A DNA stretch of 64,000 nucleotides from Sphingomonas sp. HMP6 (GTDB lineage Bacteria; Pseudomonadota; Alphaproteobacteria; Sphingomonadales; Sphingomonadaceae): assembly GCF_013374095.1 (NCBI RefSeq), contig NZ_AP022672.1, positions 3,489,501 through 3,553,500 on the forward strand. Direction: 5' to 3'. Positions 31,143 to 46,799 of the stretch are shown here, one piece after another. Made by a program: the position numbers and the translations under genes. Within the stretch, counting starts at the first letter, position 1. Every line of letters starts with the position of its first letter. Under the pieces are notes generated by a model. That model saw nothing but the letters and a program-made list of their open reading frames with translations, did no database searches and was not told the origin of the DNA.

Positions 31143-31155
31143 GCCGGCCGCGATC

Positions 31156-31446
31156 CTAGCGGTTCGTCCCTGAAGGCCGCGCGGGAACGCAGGGCACGGT
31201 CGCGATTGATGCCTTCGCCACTGCGAGATCGATCTGCGCCTGACAGCGCGGCAGCAGCAGATGCCGGATCATCTCAAGATCGTTTTGCAGCACGACCGGG
31301 TCGGCCTCGTCTGCCGATCGCAACGCCTGTTTGAGCCAATCGCTCATCTGCGGGTGCTCGAGCACCCACGTGATCCTGTCCTCCGCCGCCGCGAGCAGGA
31401 GCTCGGGTTCCGGTCGAAGGTCCACCACTTGACGGCTCGTCTTCAT
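31156..31446 (-). CDS. Hypothetical protein downstream of the DabB-DabA fusion
   Basis: 96 residues from the ATG at 31446, which overlaps the dab stop (ATGA), so it is coupled to it. The sequence [24 protein letters not shown]...[23 protein letters not shown] is helical and soluble. No family recognised. The coupling suggests a role in, or assembly of, the bicarbonate transporter. It ends convergently with the MaoC gene, 13 bp apart. Confidence 0.6.
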
Positions 31447-34400
31447 GCCTGGACCGCCGGATGCCGCGTCGGAGCGGCGACCGGCTCCTCGGCGGCGACC
31501 GGTTCCCACGCCAGACCCCCGCAATATCGCCACGCCATCTGTCCAGCCGCGTCGAGCGCAAAAAGATGGAGCCAGCGATTGTCGAACAGCGCGCGCACGC
31601 CCGGATGCCGCTCGAGGATCACGGACATCGCCTCGCGCGGAGCCTCGATACACACGCTCAGCCGCAGCGGTTCGTGCGCCAAACCCACGCCGTCATGCAC
31701 CGATTGCCACGGTAGCCCCGCACGCAGCGTGCCGCCATTGCCCTCGACCACGCCGATTCCACCGACGACATTGTGTAACAGCTTGTTGCCGCCGCCGAAC
31801 AGGTCGGGCGCGACGCTCGATCCGTAATATTGCAAGCTGATCCAACTCGCCACGACGACCGGCGCGGTCATGATCAGTTCGAGCACGCCAAAGCCCGCAT
31901 CGTCGCGCCAGTTGTAATCGTGGAGGAAGGCCCGACCTTGCAGCGATTTGCCGACCGTGCGCGTGCGCGGCGCAGCGATGAACGCCTTGCACCCGGCGAG
32001 CGCCCATTCGGGGCGGGTTTCGGCCCAATCGCGGCTGCGTCTGGCGATGCTGCTTTCGGCCAGCGCCCGCGGCAAGCGCAGCGCCCGCTCGCCGCGCGTC
32101 AAGGCGCCGGCATCCGCCAGGAAACCGCGCGCGCGCACCACGGCAGCGCGGTGTTCGGGCGAGGGATGGTCCCCGGCGTAAATGAACACGGTGTCGGTGG
32201 TCGTGTCGTGGAGTGCGGCAAGGAACAGCGTGCCGGCCGGGATCACGATGTCCAGCGCGCGCAGCCCGTCGCGGATTGCCGGATCGTTGAGCAACCCGGC
32301 GAGCAGCCGGGCATTGACCTCGCCCGAATAGCCGCCACACGCGCCGCAGTGCAGGCCACTCGCATGCGGATTGTTGACCACGTTGGCGCCATGCCCGACT
32401 AGCAGCACCAGTGGCGCGAAATCGCGGGTGAGCGACATGGCGCGCAGGATCGACGCTGCCATGCCGACGCGCGTCTCCAGATCGAGTGGCGGTTCTGCCT
32501 GGGGCGCGGGGTCGTTGGGCACGGCGTTGGCATGCAGCGCGAACGCATCGCGCAGCAGCTTGGCGATATAGACCGGCCCGGCCGCCTCAACAAAGGCGAA
32601 GGAGGACACCGCCGCCAGCTTGAAGCGGCCCCACGCCCGCGTCGCGCGCGCCTTGTACCGCGCGATCGTGTCCGCGCCGACGTCCGCCGCATCGCCCGAA
32701 CGTGAGGTAAGGCCGGGGTTGAGCAAAACCGGCAAGCGATGCTCGGCCACGTCGGAGGCAAAGCGACGATGCGACGCGGTCAGCCCGAAGAAGCCCGCAA
32801 ACCCCAGAGTTTGCACGCCAGGATGCACCGTTTCGAGCGCCCGCCGATACACTTCGGATCGGACGTCGATGCAGAACGCCGCCTGCAGGATGACGGGCGT
32901 CGGGTCGGCGACGGGATGCGCCGCGGCCAGGGTCCGCCCGAGGTCGCGCTGCGCCGCGCGCTCGCACGCTTCCTGCAAGATAGCATCGACGATCTCATCC
33001 GCCGTGGGCGCGACCGGTTGCGCGTGCGCTGCGACGACGGCGTCCCATTGCGCACCGATCCGTGGCGCATAGTGATCGAACAGGGCTTCCTCCCACAACA
33101 GCCGGATCGACAGGAAATCCGTGATCGTGGCGTCGTCCGCCCCCGCGAGCTGCGCCTGCCAGCGTTTGTAGCGGGCATATTGCGCCCACCCGCCGAGCGT
33201 GATCAGCAGGCTGTGGAAATAGGTTTGCGCCGCCGCTTGCGGCAAACCCAACTGCGCCGCGGTCCGCGTCATCGCATCGCTCGCGGTTTCGGGCGCTTCG
33301 GCGACGAAGCTTGCAAAGTCGGACAGACCGGCAATTTCCGGGGTCAGATCATGCGTCGCGACCGCCTGCCAAGCGGCATAGGCGCTGCGTCCCTTGGGTG
33401 CCGCCCACAGCGCCTGACCCTCGTCGAAATAGGCCGCCGCCCAAGCGCCGAAGCGCTCGGCGATGATGCCGGGCCAGTCGATTCCCGATGCCTCTGCCGC
33501 CAGGTCGGCAATCGTCGGCACTGCCTTGATCGGCGCGGACGGCTGATTGGCCGCGGCCTTGAGCGCGGCGACGGAGCCGGGCCGGTGCGAGCCAGTTGCG
33601 CCCGACAGCGCGGCCACCAGATCGTCATCGCTCACCGTGCCGTCTGCGATGCGGGCGCTGTACCAACCGCGCGGCATCGTGACGGGGGCGCCCGCCACAC
33701 GCGCCAAGAGCGCGGCGGTCTGCGCAAGCGTCTGTTCGGTCTGCCCGAAATAGGGGTTTACGGCGACGCTCGACGCTAGCGGCCAGACGGGGGGGATGGC
33801 ACATGCGGCGGCTTCGGCGGCCGTTGACAGCGCAACGGGGTCGGCGGGCTGCGGCCCGAACTGGCTCGGCATCGGAATCATCTCCTTGCGCGTCGCGCGC
33901 CGTGGACGCAGCGCCCAGCCGCCGAGCAAGCGGTCGAACAGGGCGTTGGCGTAAAGACCGTTGGACAAATGGACCCGCAGGCCGGCAGCTGCAGGGTGAT
34001 ACGCCCAGAGCGGGAACATCGCCTGCGCGACGGCCACTATAGCGAAACTCAGCACCGCGAGCACGATCAGCGCCCATTCGAGCGGCCCCGGCATCGGGGT
34101 CGCGGGCAGCGTGTCGGCGGTGAGCCATTGCGCAAGGCCGTGCAGCGCGAAATAGCCGACCGACGCCGCCACGGCGTAGACCGCCACGCGGCGCGTCAGC
34201 GCGCGTGGGGCGGCATCGGCAAACCCTTGCGCGAAGAGATAGGCGATCCCGAAGATCAGGATCGCGCCGAGCGCGATGCCTTCCGGCGATTGCTGGTGAA
34301 ACCCGAACCCAGCGCCGATCGCGCCATAGATGCCGAGCGCGACGAGAAAAGCCCGGCCGACCGCTCTCGCATCGGGGATCGCCACCGGCCCCGGTCGCCG

Positions 34401-35459
34401 CGCCAGCGCGATCCGCTCGACCGCGCCGCCCGAGGCAAGGAACGAGTGCGCCTTATAGAGCGAGTGCGCGACGATATGCAGCAGCGCGAGCGGGAACAGC
34501 GCCAGCCCACACTGCATGATCATGAAGCCCATTTGCGCGACCGTCGACCAGGCCAGCGAGGTCTTCACTGCCGGTTGCGTCAGCATCACCAACCCGCCGA
34601 ACAAAGCCGTGAACCCGCCGATCATCACCAGCACCGCCAGCACGCCGGGGGCCAGCAGCATCACGTCGGCGAAGCGGATCAGAATGAACCCCCCGGCATT
34701 GATGACGCCCGCGTGCAGCAGCGCCGAAACCGGGGTCGGCGCTTCCATCACTTCGGTCAGCCAGCCGTGCAGCGGAAATTGCGCCGATTTCAGCAGCGCC
34801 GCGATCGCCAGCAGCCCGGCCGCGGCGACCGCCTGGGTGCCGCCTTCACCGGCGCGCGCTGCGCTCAGGATCGCGGCGATGCCGGTGGTGTGATACGCAA
34901 TCGCGAGCAGCACCGCCGCACCGACCAGCGCAACATCCGCCGCCCGCGCGGTCACGAACTTCTTGCGCGCCGCGCGCTGTGCCGCCACGCGATCGGGATA
35001 GAATATAAGCAGCCGGTGCAGCCCCATGCTCGTCGCGATCCAGGCCACGACCAGTTCGATCAAATCGCCCGACAGCACCAGCAGCAGCACCGCCGCCAGC
35101 GTCATGCACAGCCAGCCGGTGAAGGCCGCTTGGCGCGGTTCGCCGTCGAGATAGGTGGCCGAATAGCGCACCACGATCCACCCGACGAACGACACCAGCA
35201 AGGCGAGCGTCACGCTTACCGCATCGATGCGCGTGGCGAATCCGGCACCCGCCAGCCCGATCACGCGACTGTCGACCGGGCCGTGCCAGACCAGGACTAC
35301 CGCCAAGATTCCGGCGACCAAAAGCGTCAGCAGCGCCGCCGCCTCCGCCAGCCGCGCGACACTGCCCGCGCTGCGGGGCGGCGCGACGAACGCGACGCCG
35401 GCGCTCAGCAGCAACGCGAGCGGCGCGGCAAAGGGCAGAAGATTGAACGGCATCGGCAC
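31443..35459 (-). CDS. dabBA: DabB-DabA fusion: membrane proton-coupled inorganic carbon (bicarbonate) accumulation protein
   Basis: 1338 residues joining two normally separate proteins. Residues 1-529 are a complex-I NuoL-like membrane channel (many spans; [67 protein letters not shown]) corresponding to DabB. Residues 530-1338 are DUF2309/DabA, a carbonic-anhydrase-like unit. Its zinc residues are present: Cys863 and Asp865 (FCIDVRSEV), His1023 (GHGANVVNN) and Cys1038 (LHCGACGG). The His-Cys spacing of 15 equals that of the studied Halothiobacillus DabA. DAB complexes trap CO2 as bicarbonate using the proton gradient. It is divergent from the lysR-led carbon-fixation genes. Confidence 0.93.
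33872..33887 (-). promoter_or_regulatory. Internal ribosome-binding site at the DabB/DabA joint
   Basis: AAGGAG (33882-33887, minus strand) sits 9 nt before an in-frame ATG at 33872 encoding [12 protein letters not shown], the expected start of a DabA protein of 809 residues. No stop codon separates the two halves. This may be a recent fusion of overlapping genes in which DabA can also be made alone. Confidence 0.6.
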
Positions 35460-35540
35460 TTCCCCGAGGCGCAGTATTGCGCATGGGAGCCGCCATTACG
35501 CTGCCGATTTGATCAGATATAATTCATTGTCTTTGCGATT

Positions 35541-35561
35541 TCGTTCTGTTTTATAGAACGA
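35541..35561. promoter_or_regulatory. Inverted repeat in the dab/lysR intergenic region (LysR-type operator)
   Basis: TCGTTCT (35541-35547) and AGAACGA (35555-35561) form a perfect 7-bp inverted repeat with a 7-bp spacer and contain a T-N11-A core, the pattern bound by LysR regulators. It ends 1 bp before the lysR ATG, in the 103-bp region shared by the divergent dab and lysR genes, so one regulator could control both arms. Confidence 0.6.
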
Positions 35562-35562
35562 T

Positions 35563-36513
35563 ATGAAGACGCTGAATTTCAACCATCTGCGCTATTTCTG
35601 GGCGGTTGCGCATGAGGCGAGCCTGACGCGTGCGGCGGAACGGCTCAACCTGTCGCAATCGGCGCTGTCTGTGCAGATCCAGAAACTCGAACACCAGATC
35701 GGCCATGCGCTGTTCGACCGCGTCGGCAAGCGGCTGGTGCTGACCGAGGCTGGGCAGATTGCGCTCGATTATGCCGACACCGTGTTTCAGGCGGGCGATG
35801 AAATGCTGAGCACACTCGACGGCCGCCCGCTGGCGAATCGCCAGATCCTGCGCGTCGGCGCGCTCACCACGCTGTCGCGCAACTTCCAGCTCCAGTTTCT
35901 ACGCCCACTGGTCGGGCGCGCCGATGTCGAGCTGATCGTGCGGTCGGGCACGATCCGCGATTTGCTGGCGCAACTCGAAGCGCACAGCATCGACGTCGTT
36001 TTGTCGAACAGCGCAGCGCAGCGCGATGCCCGTGCGTCATTCCGCAATCATCTGCTCGACCAGCAGCCGGTCAGTCTGGTTGGTCGCCCGCGCGCCGGTC
36101 AGCGCCCGTTTCGTTTCCCGGAAGATTTGCGGCACGAGCCGATCCTGCTGCCGAGCCTCGATAGTGATATCCGCGTCCGGTTCGATCATTTGCTCGATGT
36201 TGCCGGCATCAGGCCGATCATTCTGGCGGAGGTCGATGACATGGCAATGTTACGTCTGCTCGCGCGCGAACGGGAGGGCGTGACGCTGGTGCCGCCGATC
36301 GTCGTTTTCGACGAACTTGAAGCCGGGGTGCTGGTCGAGCATTGCCGCATTCCGCACCTGACCGAGAGCTTCTACGCGATCATCCAGAAGCGCCGTTTCC
36401 CGAACCGGCTCTTGGCCGAACTGCTCGAACGCTCGGCTGCAACCGAATCGCCGCTACGGAATGCTGGCGATCCCGCACCGCCTGCGGCGGAGTTGCCAAT
36501 CGCCCGATATTGA
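35563..36513 (+). CDS. LysR-family regulator (NhaR-like) of the carbon-uptake/3-HP genes
   Basis: 316 residues. The N-terminal helix-turn-helix, MKTLNFNHLRYFWAVAHEAS... LTRAAERLNLSQSALSVQIQKLEHQIG, and the effector domain from about 90 resemble NhaR-type LysR proteins, which often neighbour dab genes. It is divergent from dabBA and 39 bp upstream of pcs on the same strand, so it is both the regulator of the left arm and probably the first gene of the right operon. The effector is unknown; bicarbonate- or acyl-CoA-related signals are only inference. Confidence 0.9.
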   Translation: MKTLNFNHLRYFWAVAHEASLTRAAERLNLSQSALSVQIQKLEHQIGHALFDRVGKRLVLTEAGQIALDYADTVFQAGDEMLSTLDGRPLANRQILRVGALTTLSRNFQLQFLRPLVGRADVELIVRSGTIRDLLAQLEAHSIDVVLSNSAAQRDARASFRNHLLDQQPVSLVGRPRAGQRPFRFPEDLRHEPILLPSLDSDIRVRFDHLLDVAGIRPIILAEVDDMAMLRLLAREREGVTLVPPIVVFDELEAGVLVEHCRIPHLTESFYAIIQKRRFPNRLLAELLERSAATESPLRNAGDPAPPAAELPIARY

Positions 36514-36552
36514 GGCTCAATACCCTCAAAATAACAGAGGGGATGATTCGGG

Positions 36553-39500
36553 ATGGTGGGAGCGTCAACGATCGCCGCGACAGTGACTCCCCAGCACAAT
36601 CCCGTCCGTACCCGCAGCGATTGGGAGGCGATGCGCGCGGCCGTTCTGGCCGATCCCGGCGCGTTTCACGGCGAGATCGCGGCGCGGACGATGCATTGGT
36701 TCGTCGGCGATGTGGGTGCGGCGGGTGCTTGGCTGGCCCGCGGCGAAGACGGCCGTTGGTCGGGCTGGGATGCGGCGACCGGTGATGCGGTAACGCCCGA
36801 TCTCCCCGCCGATTTCGCGCCGTGGACGCAAGCGTTCGACGGATCGGAGCCGCCGCATTGGCGCTGGTTCGTCGGCGGGCGCACCAATGCCTGTTTCAGC
36901 GAAGTTGATCGCCACGTGCTGAGCGGCCACGGCGACGAAACCGCGCTCATCTTTGAGGGCGACCGCTGGGACATGTCGGCGCTGGGCAGTCAGGGGGCGC
37001 CGGTCGATTGCTTTGGCGTCTCGCGTAAGCAATTGCTGCTGGAAACCGCGAAATGCGCGCTGGCGCTGGAGGCGCTGGGGCTGAAAGCGGGCGACCGCAT
37101 CGCGCTCAACATGCCGAGCATCGTGCCACAGATTTACTGGACCGAGGCGGCGAAACGGCTCGGCATCGTCTATACCGCCGTATTCGGCGGGTTCAGCGAC
37201 AAGACGCTGTCAGACCGCATCTGCGATGCCGGTGCGCGCGTCATCGTCACTTCGGATGGCAGCTATCGCAACGCGCAGGTCGCCGCGTTCAAGAACGCCT
37301 ATACCGACCCGGCGCTCGACAATTATGTGCCCGTGGCGACCGCGCTCGCGATCCTGGCAGAGACCGATCTCGAACTGGCGCCCGCCGAAACCGAGACGAT
37401 CCTCGCCACCGTCAGGGCGACGCTCGCGGGCGAAGTGTCGGTCGAGCGCTCGGACGTGATGCGCGGTGTGGGGCGGGCGCTCATCACGCTTGGCAGCGAA
37501 GGCCGCATCAGCAGTGCCGACGCCGCGCGCGTGCGGATCGCGATTGCCTCCAGCCTTGTCACGCTCCCGCCACGCGTCGAGACGGTGGTCGTCGTGCGGC
37601 ACACCGCGCAACCCGACGTGATCTGGCGCGAGGAGCGCGACCGCTGGAGCCACGAACTGACCGATGCCGCGCTGGAAACGCTGCTGGCGAAGGCGCGCGA
37701 GGCGGGCTTTGCGGTGACGACACAGGCCGAGCTGCTGGCGCTGCCGGATGCGGATTTCGTGCGCGCGATCTGGGCCGCGTCCAAGCCGCTACCGGTCGAT
37801 GCCGATTACCCGATGTTCTTCATCTATACCTCGGGCTCGACCGGAAAGCCGAAGGGCATCGTCCACGCGCACGGCTATGCCGCCGGGCTGGCCGAAACGA
37901 TGGCGGTGGCATTCGATGCGCGGCCCGGCGACACATTGTTCGTCGTCGCCGATCCGGGCTGGATCACCGGACAAAGCTATTTGATCTGCGCGCCGCTGAT
38001 GACGCGGGTGACCAGCGTCGTGTCGGAAGGGTCGCCGGTCTTCCCGCACGCCGGACGCTTCGCCTCGATGATCGAGCGGCACGGGGTCACCATCTTCAAG
38101 GCGGGCGTCACCTTCCTCAAATCGGTGATGTCGGACCCGTCGAACCTTGCCGAGCTCGAACGCTATGACATGGGGGCCTTGCGCGTCGCTACCTTCTGCG
38201 CCGAGCCGACCTCGCCATCGGTGCAGGCGTTCGGAATGCAGCATGTCGTCCCGCAATACATCAACAGCTATTGGGCTACCGAGCATGGCGGGATCGCCTG
38301 GACGCATTTTTACGGCAATCACGATTTTCCGTTGAAACCCGATGCCCACGCCTATCCGCTGCCGTGGATCGTCGGGGATGTGTGGGTCGAGGATGCCGAT
38401 GCGAGCGGTGGCGACACCCCGTTCGCGCGCGACGGTGGCGAGGGCGTGCCGTGGCGTCGCGCCGAAATGGGCGAGAAAGGCGAGATCGTCATCGCCGCGC
38501 CCTATCCGTACCTCGCGCGCACGATCTGGGGCGATGTCGGCAATTTCCGCGTCGAAAATGGCAGCGTAGCGCCCGCATGGCGCGGAGATGCCGATCGCTG
38601 GATCGACGGCTATTGGAAGCGCTGGCGCGGCAGCTGGGCCTATACCCAAGGCGATTTCGCGATCGCGCATGACGATGGCTCTTTCTCGCTCCACGGGCGC
38701 AGCGACGATGTGATCAACGTCTCGGGCCACCGCATGGGGACCGAGGAGATCGAGGGCGCGGTGCTGCGCGACAAGGCGCTCGATCCGGATTCGCCGGTCG
38801 GCAACGTGCTCGTGATCGGCGCGCCGCACCGCGAGAAAGGGCTGACCCCGCTCGCCTTCGTCGTGCCGGTGGCGGGGCGCAAACTGACGCTCGACGACAA
38901 GCGCCGCCTGTTCGAACTGGTGCGCAGCGAGAAGGGTGCGGTCGCGGTGCCGGCCGATTTCATCGAAGTCTCGCAATTCCCCGAAACGCGCAGCGGCAAG
39001 TACATGCGCCGGATGGTCCGCGCTTTAGTCGAGGGCGGCGATGTCGGCGACGTGACGACACTGCGCAACCCCGAGGCGCTGACCGAGCTCAAGACTGCGA
39101 TCGACGATTGGCAGCGCAAACAGCGCTTGAGCGAGGAGCAATCGCTGTTCGAGCGCAATCGCTACTTCCTCGTCCAGTACAATACCGTCGCTCCGGGCAA
39201 GCGCGTCGCGACCGTCACCGTCACCAACCCGCCCGTCAATGCGCTCAACGAACGCGCGATCGACGAGCTGGTGGTCGTGGTTGATCAGCTATCGCGCAAG
39301 GACGATGTCGTCGCGGTGGTGTTCACCGGACAGGGCACCGCCTCGTTCGTCGCGGGTGCCGACATCCGCCAGATGCTCGAGGAAATCCACACCTTCGACG
39401 AAGCGATGGTGCTCCCCAACAACGCGCAGCTCGCCTTTCGCAAGATCGAGACGATGGGCAAGCCGTGCATCGCCGCGGTGCAGGGCGTGGCGCTGGGCGG

Positions 39501-42051
39501 CGGGATGGAGTTCGCGCTTGCCTGCCATTACCGCATCGCCGAGCCGACCGCGCGTTTCGGGCAGCCGGAGATTCGGCTGCGGTTGTTGCCCGGCTATGGC
39601 GGCACGCAGCGGTTGCCGCGGCTGCTGGGCGACCGGGTCGCGTTTGGCGACGGCTTGATCGAAGCGCTCGAACTCATTCTCGGCGGGCGATCCATTGATG
39701 CCGAGGATGCTCTAGACATTGGCTTGATCGATTGTCGGGTCAGCGGAAGCAACGACGCTTTGAGCACGGCCCATGCGCTCGTCCGAGACTTCGTGCGGGA
39801 GGGCGCGGCAAGCACTCTGGGGAAGGCATTTGCCGAGCGTCGCGAGGCGGTCGAGCGGTGGGATCGTCCATCGCCGTTCAGCCTCGATCAGGCATTAAGC
39901 GAGGGCGATCATGTCCAACGGATATTGCGACAGCTCGAATGGTCAGGCCGTGCAGCGGCTGGCCGTCGTATTCTTGACGCCGTTCGCACCGGCCTCGAAC
40001 ACGGAATGTCCGCAGGTCTGGCGCGCGAGGCAGAGTTATTTGCCGAGGCCATTGTCGATCCTGAGGGTGGCAAGACAGGCATCCGCCAATTTATTGACAA
40101 GGTCAGCCCGCCGCTCCCCGTTCGCGCGAACGGCGTCTGGCTTGATGAGGAACATGAGCCGCGCGGCGGGGCACTCGAAGCGGCTGGAAAATTGCTCCCG
40201 GTCGGCGCGCCCTTCTACCCCGGCGTCACGGCTATCCCGGAATGGCAATACGCCTTCGGCATCGCCCGCAATGCCGAAACCGGTGCCCCGCGCTTCGGCC
40301 CGCCCGCCAGCCACGAGCGTGAGCTGATCGTCAAGGTGCCCGAGCCCGCGCCCAACGAGGCGCTGCTCTACATGCTGACCAGCGAGGTCAATTTCAACGA
40401 CATCTGGGCGCTGACCGGCATTCCCGTGTCACCCTTCGACAGCCACGAGCAAGACGTCCAGATCACCGGCTCCGGCGGCATCGCTTTGGTGGCGGCTCTC
40501 GGCAGCGAGACGCGCGCCGAGGGGCGGGTGAAGGTCGGCGATCTCGTCACCGTCTATTCGGGCACCAACGATCTGCTCAGCCCGAATGTCGGCAACGATC
40601 CGATGTACGCCGATTTCTCGATTCAGGGTTACGAGACCGAAACCGGCAGCCACGCGCAATTCCTGACGGTGCAAGCGCCGCAAATGCACGCGATCCCGCC
40701 CGACCTGACTCTGGAGCAAGCGGGTAGTTACGTCCTCAACCTCGGCACGATCTCGCGCTGCCTGTTCACGACGCTGCAAATCGCGCCGGGGCGGACCTTG
40801 TTCGTCGAAGGCGCGGCGACCGGGACCGGGCTCGATGCACTACGCTCTTCGGTGCGGACCGGCCTGCAAGTGACCGGCCTCGTCTCTTCTCCCGAACGCG
40901 CCGCGTTCATCACGGAGCAGCAAGGCGCAGTCGGCGCGATCGATCGCAAGGACCCGCGCTTCGCCGACCTCTACACGATCGTGCCCGAAGACCCCGAAGC
41001 GGCGCGTGCATGGGAGGTGGCAGGCGCACCGCTGATCGCCGAGTATGAAGCGCTCAACGGCGGCAAGCGCGCGGATTATGTCGTCAGCCATGCCGGCGAA
41101 ACCGCTTTCCCGCGCAGCTTCCAATTGCTGGCGGAGGGCGGCACGCTGGCGTTTTACGGCGCATCGTCGGGCTATCATTTCAGCTTCATGGGCAAACCCG
41201 GCACGGCCAGCCCCGAGGAAATGTTGCGCAAGGCGGCCCTGCGCGGTGGCGAGGCGGTGCTGATTTATTACGGCCCGCGCTCGTCCGCCTTGCTCGACGA
41301 AACCGGCCTCGAAATGATCGAGGCAGCGCGGCGCTTCAACGCGCGCAGCGTCGTCGCCACCACGACCGACGGCCAGCGCGAATTCCTGCAATCGCTTGGG
41401 CTGGAGGATGCGATCGAGGGGATCGTCAGCCTCGAATCGATCCGGCGGAAGGAGGGCGCCAATTTCCTCTGGCCCGACACCATGCCGCAACTGCCCGATG
41501 CCAAGGGCGATATCGAAGTCTTCAAGGCGGCAGTGCGCGATTATCAGGATCGCGTGATGAAGCCGTTCGGTTCGGCGATCGGCAAGATCCTGCGCTCGCC
41601 CGACAATCCGCGCGGCAGCCCCGATCTGGTGATCGAACGCGCTGCGCAGGATACGCTCGGCGTCTCCACCTCGCTGGTGAAGCCATTCACGGGCCGCGTG
41701 ATCTTCGCCGAGGATCTGGCGGGCCAGCGCTTCACTTTCTACGCCCCGCAAGTGTGGACGCGGCAGCGCAAGATCCTGATGCCGACCGCGTCGATTCTCG
41801 GCACGCATTTGTGCAACGCATACGAAGTGTCGCGCATGAACGACATGATCGCGGCGGGGCTACTCGAAGTGACCGAACCGCACGTCGTGCCGTGGGATGG
41901 CTTGCCGGAGGCGCATCAGGCGATGTGGGAAAACCGCCATTCGGGCGCGACCTATGTCGTCAACCATGCGCTGCCCGAACTCGGCCTGCGCAGCCGCGAT
42001 GCCTTGCTCGAGGCCTGGGCGGCGACGGAGGCGAATCCACCCGACGCATAA
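36553..42051 (+). CDS. pcs: Propionyl-CoA synthase (trifunctional)
   Basis: 1832 residues with three catalytic parts in the order known for Pcs. (1) Acyl-CoA synthetase, about 1-870: YTSGSTGKPKG at 425-435 and the acyl-adenylate lysine 816 in RSGKYMRR. (2) Enoyl-CoA hydratase, about 880-1200: FVAGADIRQM and GVALGGGMEFALACHYRIA. (3) Medium-chain enoyl-CoA reductase, about 1200-1832: EVNFNDIWALTG and the NADPH loop GAATGTGLDALRSS near 1420. It converts 3-hydroxypropionate through its CoA ester and acryloyl-CoA to propionyl-CoA inside one chamber. Pcs is known from Chloroflexus and Erythrobacter NAP1 (about 1820 residues), a sphingomonad. GAGGGG upstream supports the start. Confidence 0.96.
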   Translation: MVGASTIAATVTPQHNPVRTRSDWEAMRAAVLADPGAFHGEIAARTMHWFVGDVGAAGAWLARGEDGRWSGWDAATGDAVTPDLPADFAPWTQAFDGSEPPHWRWFVGGRTNACFSEVDRHVLSGHGDETALIFEGDRWDMSALGSQGAPVDCFGVSRKQLLLETAKCALALEALGLKAGDRIALNMPSIVPQIYWTEAAKRLGIVYTAVFGGFSDKTLSDRICDAGARVIVTSDGSYRNAQVAAFKNAYTDPALDNYVPVATALAILAETDLELAPAETETILATVRATLAGEVSVERSDVMRGVGRALITLGSEGRISSADAARVRIAIASSLVTLPPRVETVVVVRHTAQPDVIWREERDRWSHELTDAALETLLAKAREAGFAVTTQAELLALPDADFVRAIWAASKPLPVDADYPMFFIYTSGSTGKPKGIVHAHGYAAGLAETMAVAFDARPGDTLFVVADPGWITGQSYLICAPLMTRVTSVVSEGSPVFPHAGRFASMIERHGVTIFKAGVTFLKSVMSDPSNLAELERYDMGALRVATFCAEPTSPSVQAFGMQHVVPQYINSYWATEHGGIAWTHFYGNHDFPLKPDAHAYPLPWIVGDVWVEDADASGGDTPFARDGGEGVPWRRAEMGEKGEIVIAAPYPYLARTIWGDVGNFRVENGSVAPAWRGDADRWIDGYWKRWRGSWAYTQGDFAIAHDDGSFSLHGRSDDVINVSGHRMGTEEIEGAVLRDKALDPDSPVGNVLVIGAPHREKGLTPLAFVVPVAGRKLTLDDKRRLFELVRSEKGAVAVPADFIEVSQFPETRSGKYMRRMVRALVEGGDVGDVTTLRNPEALTELKTAIDDWQRKQRLSEEQSLFERNRYFLVQYNTVAPGKRVATVTVTNPPVNALNERAIDELVVVVDQLSRKDDVVAVVFTGQGTASFVAGADIRQMLEEIHTFDEAMVLPNNAQLAFRKIETMGKPCIAAVQGVALGGGMEFALACHYRIAEPTARFGQPEIRLRLLPGYGGTQRLPRLLGDRVAFGDGLIEALELILGGRSIDAEDALDIGLIDCRVSGSNDALSTAHALVRDFVREGAASTLGKAFAERREAVERWDRPSPFSLDQALSEGDHVQRILRQLEWSGRAAAGRRILDAVRTGLEHGMSAGLAREAELFAEAIVDPEGGKTGIRQFIDKVSPPLPVRANGVWLDEEHEPRGGALEAAGKLLPVGAPFYPGVTAIPEWQYAFGIARNAETGAPRFGPPASHERELIVKVPEPAPNEALLYMLTSEVNFNDIWALTGIPVSPFDSHEQDVQITGSGGIALVAALGSETRAEGRVKVGDLVTVYSGTNDLLSPNVGNDPMYADFSIQGYETETGSHAQFLTVQAPQMHAIPPDLTLEQAGSYVLNLGTISRCLFTTLQIAPGRTLFVEGAATGTGLDALRSSVRTGLQVTGLVSSPERAAFITEQQGAVGAIDRKDPRFADLYTIVPEDPEAARAWEVAGAPLIAEYEALNGGKRADYVVSHAGETAFPRSFQLLAEGGTLAFYGASSGYHFSFMGKPGTASPEEMLRKAALRGGEAVLIYYGPRSSALLDETGLEMIEAARRFNARSVVATTTDGQREFLQSLGLEDAIEGIVSLESIRRKEGANFLWPDTMPQLPDAKGDIEVFKAAVRDYQDRVMKPFGSAIGKILRSPDNPRGSPDLVIERAAQDTLGVSTSLVKPFTGRVIFAEDLAGQRFTFYAPQVWTRQRKILMPTASILGTHLCNAYEVSRMNDMIAAGLLEVTEPHVVPWDGLPEAHQAMWENRHSGATYVVNHALPELGLRSRDALLEAWAATEANPPDA

Positions 42052-42174
42052 TTCTGCCGGGGATGGCCAACCCCCGTTGCCGTTGCCGAAATCCTCGATA
42101 AGATCAGAACACGCCCTCCCCAGGCTCTGAACACCAAGGTGCGAACCAATATCGCACGACACGTGGAGAGTGAC

Positions 42175-45100
42175 ATGGCGAAGGCGAACACCGTTATCGT
42201 TGCGACCGGCGAGGGCCGGCTGGCGGGCAAGATCGCCGTTGTGACGGGGGCGGCCGGCAATATCGGCGGCTATATCGTTCGGCATTATCTCGCCGAGGGC
42301 GCGACGGTGGTGATGACCGGGCGCACGCCGGAGCGCACCGACGCCGCGGCGGAGGCGATCCGCGCCGAAACCGGCGTCGATGCCGCACGCCTCGCAACCG
42401 TGGCGCTCGATGGCGGCGATCCGCAGTCGGTGCGAGATGCCGTCGCCGATGTCGTCAAGCGCTTCGGCCGGATCGAAATCCTCGTCAACAATGCTGGCTC
42501 CGCAGGCCCCAAGCAGCCGATCGAGCAATTGCCGATCGACGCCGACGAACTCGCCGCGCTGCAAAAATCGGGATCGAGCGACGGCGAAACCGTCGGCGAT
42601 GCGATCCGCAACATCTTCGGCGTCGCGTGGAACGTGTCGCGCGCGGCGGCGACCGCGATGGGGGAGGGCGGATCGATCATCAACATCTCGACGATCTTCT
42701 CGCGCACGCCGTATTACGCGCGCACCGCATACGTCGTGCCCAAGGCGGCGATGAACGCCTTCTCGCGCGAACTGTCGCTCGAACTCGGTCCGCGCGGTAT
42801 TCGCGTCAACCTCGTCTTCCCCGGCCCGATCGAAAGCGAGCGGATCCGCAGCGTCTTCGCGACGATGGATACGATGCGCGGCGACGATGCTGGCACCACC
42901 GCCACCCAGTTTTTCGACATGATGTCGCTCGAACGCTCGACCGGCGGCAATGCCAAGACCAAGACCTTCCCGACGCCGACCGACATCGCGCAGACGTGTG
43001 TGTTCCTCGGCAGCGACGAGTCCGCCGCCTATAACGGCCATGATTTCGAGGTCACGCACGGCATGACGGTGCGCAAGGAAGCGCGCTCGACCTATCTGTC
43101 GCGCCCGACGATGCGATCGATGGACGGGGCGGGGCTGGCCGTACTGATCGCGGCGGGCGACGGCTGGCAGGAGGCGCTGGAGATCGCTAACATCCAGATC
43201 GCGTGCGGTGCGCGCGTGCTGCTCGGCCTGACGCGCCAAGCCGATGTCGCGATCGCGCAGGCCCGCGCCAAGGCCGAAGGGGCCGACGACCGGCTGACGA
43301 TCATCCGCTTCAACCGCACCGAACCCGCCGCGATGGAGGCGGCGCTCCATGCCTACACGCAGGAGTTTACCGCGATCACCGGCGCGGTGTTCATGCCGGT
43401 GCTCGGGCCGGGCGAATTGGTCGGCGATCTGGTCGATGCGAGCGATGAGGATGTCGCGCGCTTCATGGATGTCGAACTCGCGGGCAACATCGCGCTCGCC
43501 CGCACGCTCAGCCGCTATTGGAAGCGCAACGATACCCTGCTGCAGGAACCGCGCTTCGTGTTTCTCACCAATCCGAGCGACGGCAAGGGCGATGTCTATG
43601 CCCAGATGCTGCGCGCCGCGACCGAGCAATTGATCCGCATCTGGCGCGATGAATCCGACATTGACGTCGCGCACGGGCGGCGGCGGCAGGCCGAATGGGG
43701 CAATCAGATCGTCCGCTTCGGCAATAGTGAGGCAGAGAATACCCGCTTCACCGCAGGGCATGCCGCACGCATCCTGCTGAAAGAAAGCAAAATCCGCGAG
43801 GTGACGCTCTACGTCCCGAGCAGTATCGGTGAGGCGACCGGATCGCGCAAGGCGATGCCCGGGTTCAGCGAGAACATCACCGGGCTGCACATGGGCAAGG
43901 TTGCGCTGATCACCGGTGGCTCTGCCGGTATCGGTGGCCAAGTGGCCCGCTTGCTCGCGCTTGCGGGTGCCAAGGTGATGATCGTCGCACGGCGCGAAAG
44001 CGAGCTTGCCGTGGCGCGCGCGCGGATCGTCAGCGAGCTTGAGGATATCGGCTTTTCCGGGGTCGAACGGCGCGTGCAGACGCTTGGCAATGTCGATGTC
44101 AGCATTTTCGCATCGTTGAAGGGCGCGGTCGATGCGACGCTGAAGGCGTTCGGGCGGATCGATTATCTGATCAACAATGCCGGCGTCGCGGGGGCCGAGG
44201 ACATGGTCGTCGATATGAGTGTCGATGCCTGGAACTACACGCTCGATGCGAATTTAATCTCGAACTTCTTCGTGATGCACCACGTCGTGCCGCTGATGAA
44301 GGCGCAGGGGTCGGGCTATGTGCTCAACGTCTCCTCCTATTTCGGCGGTGAGAAGTATCTCGCGGTCGCCTATCCCAACCGCGCCGATTACGCCGTCTCG
44401 AAATCGGGCCAGCGCGCGATGGTCGAGGCGATGTCGCGTTACCTTGGGCCGGAGGTGCAATTCAACGCGATTGCGCCCGGCCCGGTCGATGGCGATCGTC
44501 TCGCGGGCACGGGTGGCAAGCCCGGCCTGTTCGACCGGCGCGGCAAGCTGATCCTGGAAAACAAGCGCCTCAACGCGATCCACGCCGCCGCGGTCAAGGC
44601 GCTGCGGCGCGGGGTGCGGGTCGAGGCGTTGCTGACGCGGCTGGCGCGCAACGACACGGTGCGGATGTCGCACGACACCAATGTCCCGCGCGAAATCCGC
44701 GATCTGGCGCTGGCCTGCGCGCGTGAGGGCGATGGCGTGTGTACGTGGGACCAATATCTGCTGACCGCGCCGATCGCGGCCGCGCTCGTTTCGAGGCTGC
44801 GGCAGGGTGGCTATTTCCTCGATGCGCCGGGCTGGCGCGACCGGCCCGATACGGCGGAAGCGAACGGCAACTGGCTCCTGCGCACCCCGCCCGAGGATGC
44901 GCCGTTCCTGCCCGCCGAAAAGATCGCAGTCGAGGCAAAAAAGGTCGGCAGCGGGGTGCTGTCCAAACTGTATCTCGGCAAGATGCCGACCGAGGGCGAT
45001 GTCGCACAGGCAACGGTGTTTTTCCTCGCAGATCGCGCGGTGTCGGGTGAGACCTTCATGCCCTCGGGCGGCCTGTCGGTCGAACGTTCGACCACCGAGC

Positions 45101-45858
45101 GCGAACTGTTCGGCAGCCCCAAGCAGGAACGGCTCGATCAGATGCGCGGCAAGACGGTGTGGATCATTGGCGAGCATCTGGTCGATTACATCGCCGAGAC
45201 CGCGCGTGCCTTCATCACCGAAGCGCAAGTCGCCCGCGTCGTCCTCATCACGCGGACGGCGGAAGGCTTCGCGGCGCTGAAGGCCGCGCTCTCCGATGTG
45301 CCCGGCGAAACGGTCGAATCGATCGTGTGCGGCGACGCCGTCGAGGGCGCGATGGACGCAGCGATGGTGCAATGGGGCCGGCCCACCACCGTCCTCTCCA
45401 CCCCGTTCGAGGCGCTGCCGCAAAAGCTGTTCGAACGCGACGACCCGCTCGACCCGGACGCATTCCGGCTGTTGGTCGCCAACAACCTTACGAACCACTT
45501 CCGCGTTTCGCGCAAAGCCTCGCTGTACGACGATTGCCAGCTTGTGCTCGCCTCGCCCGACGTGCCGATGGGCGACAAGAGCCCGGCCTTCGCGCTCGCC
45601 AATTTCATCAAGACGACGCTGCACGCCTTCACCGCGACGCTCGCGGTGGAGAATGAGCGGTTGGTGCATGATGTGCCGGTCAACCAGATCAACCTAACGC
45701 GCCGCGTGCAATCGGAGGAGCCACGCGATCTCGACGAGCATCTTGAAGAGGTGAAACGCTTTGCGCGGGCTGTGCTGTTGCTCGGCGCGCCGCTCCCCGA
45801 TGCCGAGGATTCGCGCTATCGTGCGCGGATCTATCGCGGCATGTCGATGACGGTGTGA
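42175..45858 (+). CDS. mcr: Malonyl-CoA reductase (bifunctional, two SDR halves)
   Basis: 1227 residues from the ATG at 42175, which has GGAG 7 nt upstream; the frame also opens at a GTG 36 bp earlier. Tandem short-chain-dehydrogenase halves: the N-terminal half has [10 protein letters not shown] (24-32) and Tyr186/Lys190 (YVVPK); the C-terminal half has [10 protein letters not shown] (from 579) and Tyr739/Lys743 (YAVSK). In the Chloroflexus enzyme the C half reduces malonyl-CoA to malonate semialdehyde and the N half reduces that to 3-hydroxypropionate, using NADPH. Both active sites look intact. It lies between pcs, which uses its product, and accA, which belongs to the enzyme making its substrate. 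Confidence 0.96.
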
Positions 45859-46799
45859 TGCACTATCTCGGGTTCGAAAAGCCGATCGAGGCGCTCGCCG
45901 CCAGCGCAGCCGCGCTGCGGCGCGCCGGGGGGAGCGAAGGCGACGCCGCAATGCTCGACGAGCGCGCCGAGCGGCAGCTCGTCGATCTCTACGCGCGGCT
46001 CACGCCGTGGCAGCGCACGCAAGTCGCGCGGCATCCCGATCGCCCGCACTTCCACCACTTCGTCGAGGGGTTGTTCGAGGATTTCATGCCGCTGGCGGGC
46101 GACCGCGCGTTCGGCGACGACAAGGCGATCATCGGCGGCCTGGCGAAGTTCGAGGGACGATCGGTCCTCGTCATCGGTCACGTAAAGGGCGAGGATACGA
46201 CCTCGCGCCTGCACCACAATTTCGCGATGGCGCGGCCAGAGGGGTATCGCAAAGCGATCCGGTTGATGGATCTGGCTGACCGCTTCGGCCTTCCCGTTAT
46301 CACACTGGTGGATACGCCCGGCGCCTTTCCCGGCATCGATGCGGAGGCGCGCGGGCAGGCCGAGGCGATTGCGCGCAGTACCGAACGCTGCCTGTCGCTC
46401 GGCGTGCCGCTGATCGCGGTGATCGTCGGCGAAGGCGGCTCGGGCGGGGCGGTTGCGCTCGCGGCGGCGAACCGCGTGCTGATGTTCGAACATGCGGTCT
46501 ATTCGGTCATCTCGCCCGAGGGGTGCGCGTCGATCCTGTGGCGCGGGGCGGACCGCGCGCCCGATGCCGCCGAAGCGATGAAGATCACCGCGGCGGATTT
46601 GCTGCGGCTCGGCGTGATCCACCGCATCGTCTACGAACCCAAAGGCGGCGCGCACCGTGACCATCCCGGCGCGATCAAGCGGCTCTCGCTGGCGCTGCGT
46701 GCCGAACTCGACGCCCTGAAGACCCTCAGCGCGGCCGAACTGCGTACCGAGCGGCGGAACTTCTTCCTTCAGCTCGGCCGCGCGCCCGCCGCGCCATAG
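45858..46799 (+). CDS. accA: Acetyl-CoA carboxylase carboxyltransferase subunit alpha (AccA paralogue)
   Basis: 313 residues from the ATG at 45858, which overlaps the mcr stop (TGATG). Crotonase-fold carboxyltransferase with [25 protein letters not shown], the biotin/acyl-CoA loop [25 protein letters not shown], and [20 protein letters not shown]. It belongs to the complex that makes malonyl-CoA from acetyl-CoA and carboxybiotin. No accD, accB or accC lies in the window, so it must work with subunits encoded elsewhere; a second, housekeeping accA is likely. Its end overlaps speD tail-to-tail by 31 bp. Confidence 0.95.

Follow-up and report, generated by a model that had tools for sequence, protein, structure and literature searches.

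In the 64,000-nucleotide stretch of the Sphingomonas sp. HMP6 genome analysed here (the window; G000:C1:3489501-3553500, in a single-contig genome of 3.64 Mb), a fused dabB-dabA gene for a DAB-type bicarbonate pump stands next to genes for propionyl-CoA synthase (Pcs), malonyl-CoA reductase (Mcr) and the carboxyltransferase alpha subunit AccA, with a LysR-family regulator gene between the two arms. The order dab-lysR-pcs-mcr-accA recurs in Sphingomonas psychrolutea (L104; 86.5% DNA identity) and in the pond metagenome-assembled genome (MAG) D8_MAG_00061 (L113; 88.0% DNA identity), whose contig ends after dabB, and the arrangement is therefore not due to chance. As the host genome carries pufL and pufM (two PF00124 matches at 2592031-2593708), the host is taken to be an aerobic anoxygenic phototroph (AAP). 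We read the island as a bicarbonate-supplied, partial 3-hydroxypropionate (3-HP) route in such a phototroph, a reading that we regard as evenly balanced between right and wrong.

Organization of the island

The genes, their key residues, their linkage and their association across genomes are direct observations. The lysR gene is divergent from dabBA across a gap of 103 bp, pcs begins 39 bp after lysR, and mcr and accA follow. All reading frames are intact and no decay was seen; the five products named by an earlier reading of this DNA (the original prediction) were all recovered where it had placed them. The features are as follows.

31443..35459, minus strand: fused DabB-DabA, 1338 aa, proton-channel subunit followed by the zinc CO2-hydrating subunit, from profile and residue alignment
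31156..31446, minus strand: small open reading frame (ORF), 96 aa, overlapping the dabA stop (ATGA), without a family match
35460..35562: gap of 103 bp between dabBA and lysR, kept in L104 and L113, containing the palindrome at 35541-35561
35541..35561: candidate LysR site, a perfect 7-bp inverted repeat with a 7-bp spacer, its function suggested by this form
35563..36513, plus strand: LysR-family regulator of the kind that usually adjoins dabB
36493..36521, plus strand: promoter-like TTGCCA-N17-CTCAAT, spanning the lysR 3' end and the gap before pcs; the pattern was derived from these loci
36553..42051, plus strand: Pcs, 1832 aa, three domains, all present
42139..45858, plus strand: bifunctional Mcr; an alternative ATG start is possible at 42175
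45855..46799, plus strand: AccA, the genome's second copy, overlapping mcr by 4 bp

The pump is a natural DabB-DabA fusion

In the 1338-codon dabBA frame a Proton_antipo_M domain (residues 130-348; 133 bits) precedes a DabA domain (residues 549-1297; PF10070, 839 bits against a cut-off of 25), which together make up the profile signature of DAB. Residues C863, D865, R867, E958, H1023 and C1038 align with C351, D353, R355, E444, H524 and C539 of DabA2 (PDB 9RD0), so that equivalents of the zinc Cys2His, the Asp-Arg pair and Glu444 are all conserved; the available part of the DAB2 paper names the zinc ligands, the Asp-Arg pair and a finger-motif glutamate (PMC13144422). The pump genes and zinc residues of the original prediction are thus borne out, except that its two separate genes proved to be one frame. 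A sequencing slip is unlikely, because dabBA of S. psychrolutea is likewise a single frame. The dabB stop of relatives, which lies a few codons past the point where the window frame enters dabA, is missing in both strains, and since an AAGGAG is retained before the former dabA start, free DabA may still be made beside the fusion.

This fusion is absent from all 57 other dab loci in which both genes are visible (L032-L060, L080 and L191-L220, minus L196, L217 and L205, the last being the same place as L104; L055 and L211 are apparently one record). Uniqueness of a natural DabBA fusion was ruled out by a wide protein search (8000 candidates scored), in which 111 of 112 public protein clusters held both Proton_antipo_M and DabA domains, with source names including Woeseiaceae and Micromonospora. 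No DabBA relatives were confirmed in viral contigs.

Pcs and Mcr are full length

The window Pcs aligns over residues 19-1828 with the solved structure 6EQO, which we take to be the enzyme of Erythrobacter NAP1, and Mcr aligns over residues 27-1239 with 8HI4 and over its two halves with 6K8V and 6K8S. Both marker enzymes of the 3-HP bicycle are thus present, and the alignments uphold the earlier description of a three-domain Pcs and an intact Mcr. Among the named pcs loci, 80 of 401 of which were analysed with fetched flanks of up to 10 kb, Mcr adjoins pcs in 70; eight of the other ten end within 1.4 kb of pcs, and in L174 and L182 Mcr is absent although the contig leaves space for it. A pcs-mcr fusion, suggested by one long open frame, was rejected, as none of 71 loci was fused. 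AccA is encoded at 40 of the 80 named loci and at 6 of 20 family pcs loci (about 2 kb away in L100). L174 is a record of the Firmicute Aneurinibacillus danicus, a 10.9-kb contig with a 60% identical Pcs relative and no mcr in view, reflecting either transfer or contamination.

Linkage of dab to pcs-mcr and to reaction-centre genes

Linkage of dab to pcs-mcr recurs in two unrelated bacteria. In a Rhodopila MAG (L162), dabB-dabA is followed on a single strand by an 1808-codon acyl-CoA carboxylase frame (biotin carboxylase, biotin carrier and carboxyltransferase domains), pcs and mcr. In Piscinibacter sp. MQ-18 (L156; dabB outside view), the single-strand order is dabA, about 1.9 kb, three class III CoA-transferase genes, an HpcH/HpaI lyase gene, a MaoC hydratase gene, pcs and mcr; from family and from the order known in Chloroflexus, we presume that Smt, Mct, Mcl and Mch are among these products. 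The CoA-transferase, lyase and hydratase run also precedes pcs-mcr, with no dab in view, in L146, L165 and the contig-cut L139, and this run with pcs-mcr looks like most of a 3-HP bicycle gathered in one cluster outside the Chloroflexota. L156, L146, L165 and part of L139 come from Piscinibacter, Methylibium and betaproteobacterial records.

In the 32 named genomes found to hold DabA, dabA lies in the pcs flanks in 3 cases, against 0.16 expected at random (Poisson 0.0006), and in 2 when this clade is left out (Poisson 0.011). The recurrence hints that dab beside pcs-mcr is a small, RuBisCO-free carbon-assimilation add-on. A possible dab-pcs spacing of 28 kb in Erythrobacter ramosus was discarded, since contigs are not always numbered in the order of the records.

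Four genomes of genus g7 (G006, G162, G211 and G314) carry a second pufLM behind dabA and on its strand, which ties DAB directly to reaction-centre genes. At L067, L234, L235 and L238 of this genus, the dab operon is followed by a small ORF, the second pufL-pufM and a frame with haem-binding motifs (recognized by eye); a further g7 genome, G100, has a second pufLM and no DabA match.

The small ORF behind dabA in the window, for which Pfam and NCBIfam gave no match, has relatives 3' of dabA in several sphingomonad dab loci. In S. psychrolutea, maoC and dabA are separated by a CitE-like lyase gene (L104:3694-4617) that is absent from window positions 31143-31442, where, as judged by eye, a short remnant of its start is found. 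An empty island site was sought in the own genus, and the single stretch compared (G335) was not collinear.

Pcs, DabA and phototrophy occur together

Across 347 genomes of the family, evenly drawn from a larger group, Pcs was found in 36, DabA in 39 and Photo_RC over its cut-off in 64, with one more below it. Both Pcs and DabA were present in 22, Pcs alone in 14, DabA alone in 17 and neither in 294 (Fisher p 2.7e-15, uncorrected for relatedness), so that DabA accompanies Pcs in 22 of 36 genomes and occurs in 17 of the 311 that lack it. Pcs and Photo_RC coincided in 33, with 3 holding Pcs only, 31 Photo_RC only and 280 neither; the three Pcs genomes without pufLM are 67, 88 and 76% complete. 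The co-occurrence of DabA with Pcs arises largely because both track phototrophy, to which a modest extra tie between the two is added. Distances of Pcs and DabA are correlated (n=47, Spearman 0.53, Mantel p 0.001), for which common descent would also account. Neither Pcs nor DabA was found in any of the seven own-genus genomes sampled.

Evidence against a single, jointly controlled unit

The bicarbonate-supplied reading has to be weighed against a body of unfavourable evidence, beginning with distribution. Linkage is rare, with dab in the fetched flanks of only 4 of the 80 named pcs loci (L104, L113, L156 and L162); the co-location search proposed by the original prediction succeeded in Rhodopila and Piscinibacter, and found no conservation within the family. 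Another 21 family genomes hold both genes; these lie on different contigs in 16, where true neighbours could be separated by draft assembly, and on the same contig in 5, the nearest pair being about 55 kb apart (G169). DabA was not found in 14 of the 36 Pcs-bearing family genomes; in 50 of the 80 named pcs genomes (20 labelled non-sphingomonad, then 30 others in list order), it was found in 32 and not in 18, some of them fragmentary. Within the 64 AAP genomes, DabA accompanies 20 of 33 with Pcs and 10 of 31 without (p 0.027, uncorrected for relatedness), and the own-genus AAP genomes G091 and G311 have pufLM and neither Pcs nor DabA.

The regulator tells in the same direction. In 20 dab loci without nearby pcs (L061-L080; 13 from genomes with Pcs and 7 from genomes without), a near full-length LysR relative adjoins dabB in 18, including 5 of the 7 from Pcs-lacking genomes, being divergent from dabB in 16 and co-directional in two (L069 and L070); L079 has no LysR beside dabB and L080 a weak partial match. 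By contrast, none of 20 pcs loci (L081-L100) has a LysR match of at least 60 bits, and in the 80 named pcs loci LysR is present only at two island carriers. From this difference (18/20 versus 0/20) the regulator belongs to dab, which it most likely controls. The pattern TTGC[CT]A-N17/18-[CT]TCAAT lies upstream of pcs in the three island carriers and also before the unlinked pcs of L117 and L132; a looser promoter-like pattern, derived from the same loci, matched 6 of 78 pcs-upstream stretches against a shuffle mean of 0.3 and a maximum of 2, the match in L139 being probably due to chance. Thus pcs appears to retain a promoter-like element of its own, which argues against shared LysR control. 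No terminator-like site was found between lysR and pcs, and read-through from lysR into pcs may couple both arms in this clade. The site TGT-N12-ACA, which we take to be of the PpsR type, is absent from the four stretches around the island. The earlier proposal of one unit under shared LysR control is accordingly judged weak and unproven.

The same data favour an account in which two independent modules have been brought together, DAB being a general bicarbonate supply at air CO2 and Pcs-Mcr a separate function, with their adjacency a functionless rearrangement at the level of the clade. Besides the dab-borne LysR and the promoter-like element kept before pcs, it would explain DabA in 17 family genomes without Pcs, and why G360 and G375, in which the closest DabA and Pcs outside the clade reside together, have no dab in the fetched pcs flanks. 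The renewed linkage in Rhodopila and Piscinibacter, however, and the tracking of AAP by both genes, tell against it, and we consider this account rather unlikely.

Carboxylation and the fate of propionyl-CoA

The island holds only AccA of the four subunits of acetyl-CoA carboxylase (ACC), a further point on the unfavourable side; the genome's other accA copy is at 504932, with an AccC-length biotin carboxylase at 1237433 and an AccD-like match at 423435, both outside the island. Hence, of the set from acetyl-CoA to propionyl-CoA that had been called complete, Mcr, Pcs and AccA stand and completeness does not.

The fate of propionyl-CoA is also unfavourable. Of the genes that the original prediction had suggested looking for, methylmalonyl-CoA mutase is present (NF006944, 1187 bits against a cut-off of 876), and a biotin carboxylase at 3263469, about 3 kb behind its gene, is taken to be PccA; the sole PccB-like gene found in the genome is split, so that an intact propionyl-CoA carboxylase was not recovered. 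Its pieces lie at about 2318852-2320450 and 2360855-2362369 of contig C1 (L185 and L186), the N-terminal part stopping in one copy of an IS6-family element near 2.32 Mb and the C-terminal part starting at a second, identical copy (833 bp), oppositely oriented, near 2.36 Mb. The two break ends share an identical 8-base duplication, a length that we take to be typical of IS6, which makes true transposition likely, and the break looks like IS6 transposition with inversion. A full-length carboxyltransferase at 1498142, with an acyl-CoA dehydrogenase as its neighbour, appears to belong to a methylcrotonyl-CoA carboxylase. Six of seven other genomes compared have a full-length PccB, among them the island carriers nearest to this strain, G347 and G356, so that the break appears to be confined to the strain; G375 has two partial matches on different contigs. 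PrpD was not found in this genome (G000), again to the detriment of the reading, nor in G347, G356, G091 or G311, and one each was found in G360, G370 and G375. Because the only PccB-like gene of this strain is split, its propionyl-CoA probably goes no further, whereas island-bearing relatives can probably pass it on. Of the remaining bicycle, two HpcH/HpaI proteins of the genome are 29-30% identical to the Mcl-like protein of L156; Mct, Mch, Meh and Smt were not seen among the island genes, no genome-wide search having been made.

With pccB split and PrpD not found, propionyl-CoA, if made, must exit another way, which would suit a role of Mcr-Pcs mainly as an NADPH and acetyl-CoA sink, or as a supplier of propionyl-CoA to the synthesis of odd-chain lipids or of polymers, with carbon gain secondary; against the whole PccB of G347 and G356, we hold such a role to be improbable. 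A largely idle island, which would have allowed this strain to tolerate the loss of pccB, would agree with the apparent transposition and with the harmfulness of propionyl-CoA build-up, but it is poorly compatible with intact frames throughout and conserved key DabA residues and seems equally improbable.

A proposed bicarbonate-supplied route

Taken together, these results partly support the earlier interpretation of the island as one bicarbonate-assimilation unit. In the bicarbonate-supplied route that we prefer, fused DabBA would spend the proton gradient, of which light is a likely source, on one-way hydration of CO2, trapping bicarbonate for an ACC formed by island AccA and subunits encoded elsewhere. 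Mcr would reduce malonyl-CoA to 3-hydroxypropionate, and Pcs would convert this to propionyl-CoA, where the route probably stops in this strain; relatives whose pccB is unbroken would go on to succinyl-CoA through propionyl-CoA carboxylase, which also consumes bicarbonate, and methylmalonyl-CoA mutase, giving CO2 co-assimilation and anaplerosis without RuBisCO. The activity, flux, light dependence and co-expression of the island are inferred.

A wider proposal, which we put forward tentatively, is that in AAPs a light-powered DAB acts as a carbon-concentrating mechanism that serves biotin-dependent carboxylases rather than RuBisCO and feeds the 3-HP arm, dab having been tied repeatedly to pcs-mcr (this clade, Rhodopila and Piscinibacter) or to reaction-centre genes (g7). 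If true, carbon-concentrating mechanisms would include biotin carboxylases as well as RuBisCO among the enzymes they supply. How much carbon the widespread AAP bacteria can gain from CO2 with the help of light is still debated; the tie between DAB, 3-HP and photosynthesis genes opens a direct test of light- and DAB-dependent entry of bicarbonate into propionyl-CoA, for which the split-pccB strain offers a natural contrast to S. psychrolutea.

Comparison with known systems

The island shares a pcs-mcr pair in an AAP sphingomonad with the partial 3-HP bicycle described for Erythrobacter NAP1 and Porphyrobacter in the accessible part of PMC10674011, which also reports a daytime rise of 3-HP bicycle genes in Porphyrobacter sp. 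ULC335 and holds that AAPs use their partial sets of 3-HP genes for CO2 co-assimilation, a view that fits the island. The NAP1 Pcs is 68% identical, and the fetched pcs flanks of NAP1 (L147) hold neither dab nor LysR. For AAP of Microcystis blooms, the 3-HP bicycle is described as incomplete in the portion available of PMC11089705, and the available text on Sphingomonas sp. AAP5 (PMC8067484) mentions none of CO2 fixation, carbon fixation, propionyl or RuBisCO. No report of a DAB-Pcs tie was found among the open-licence papers searched.

The predicted window pump resembles DAB2 of Halothiobacillus neapolitanus (PDB 9RD0) in its DabB and DabA domains, zinc ligands, Asp-Arg pair and finger-motif glutamate. 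It differs in being a natural single polypeptide encoded beside Pcs-Mcr, whereas dabB and dabA of DAB2 were joined by hand, in the same order as here, by authors whose Escherichia coli assay, in the part of the paper available, scored DAB rescue of growth without carbonic anhydrase (PMC13144422). In Rhodopila L162 and Piscinibacter L156, dab and pcs-mcr likewise lie together, on one strand and within 10 kb, but an acyl-CoA carboxylase frame (L162) or bicycle-like enzymes (L156) intervene, and their DAB proteins are 41-46% identical to that of the window. The island is best described as a new arrangement of known parts.

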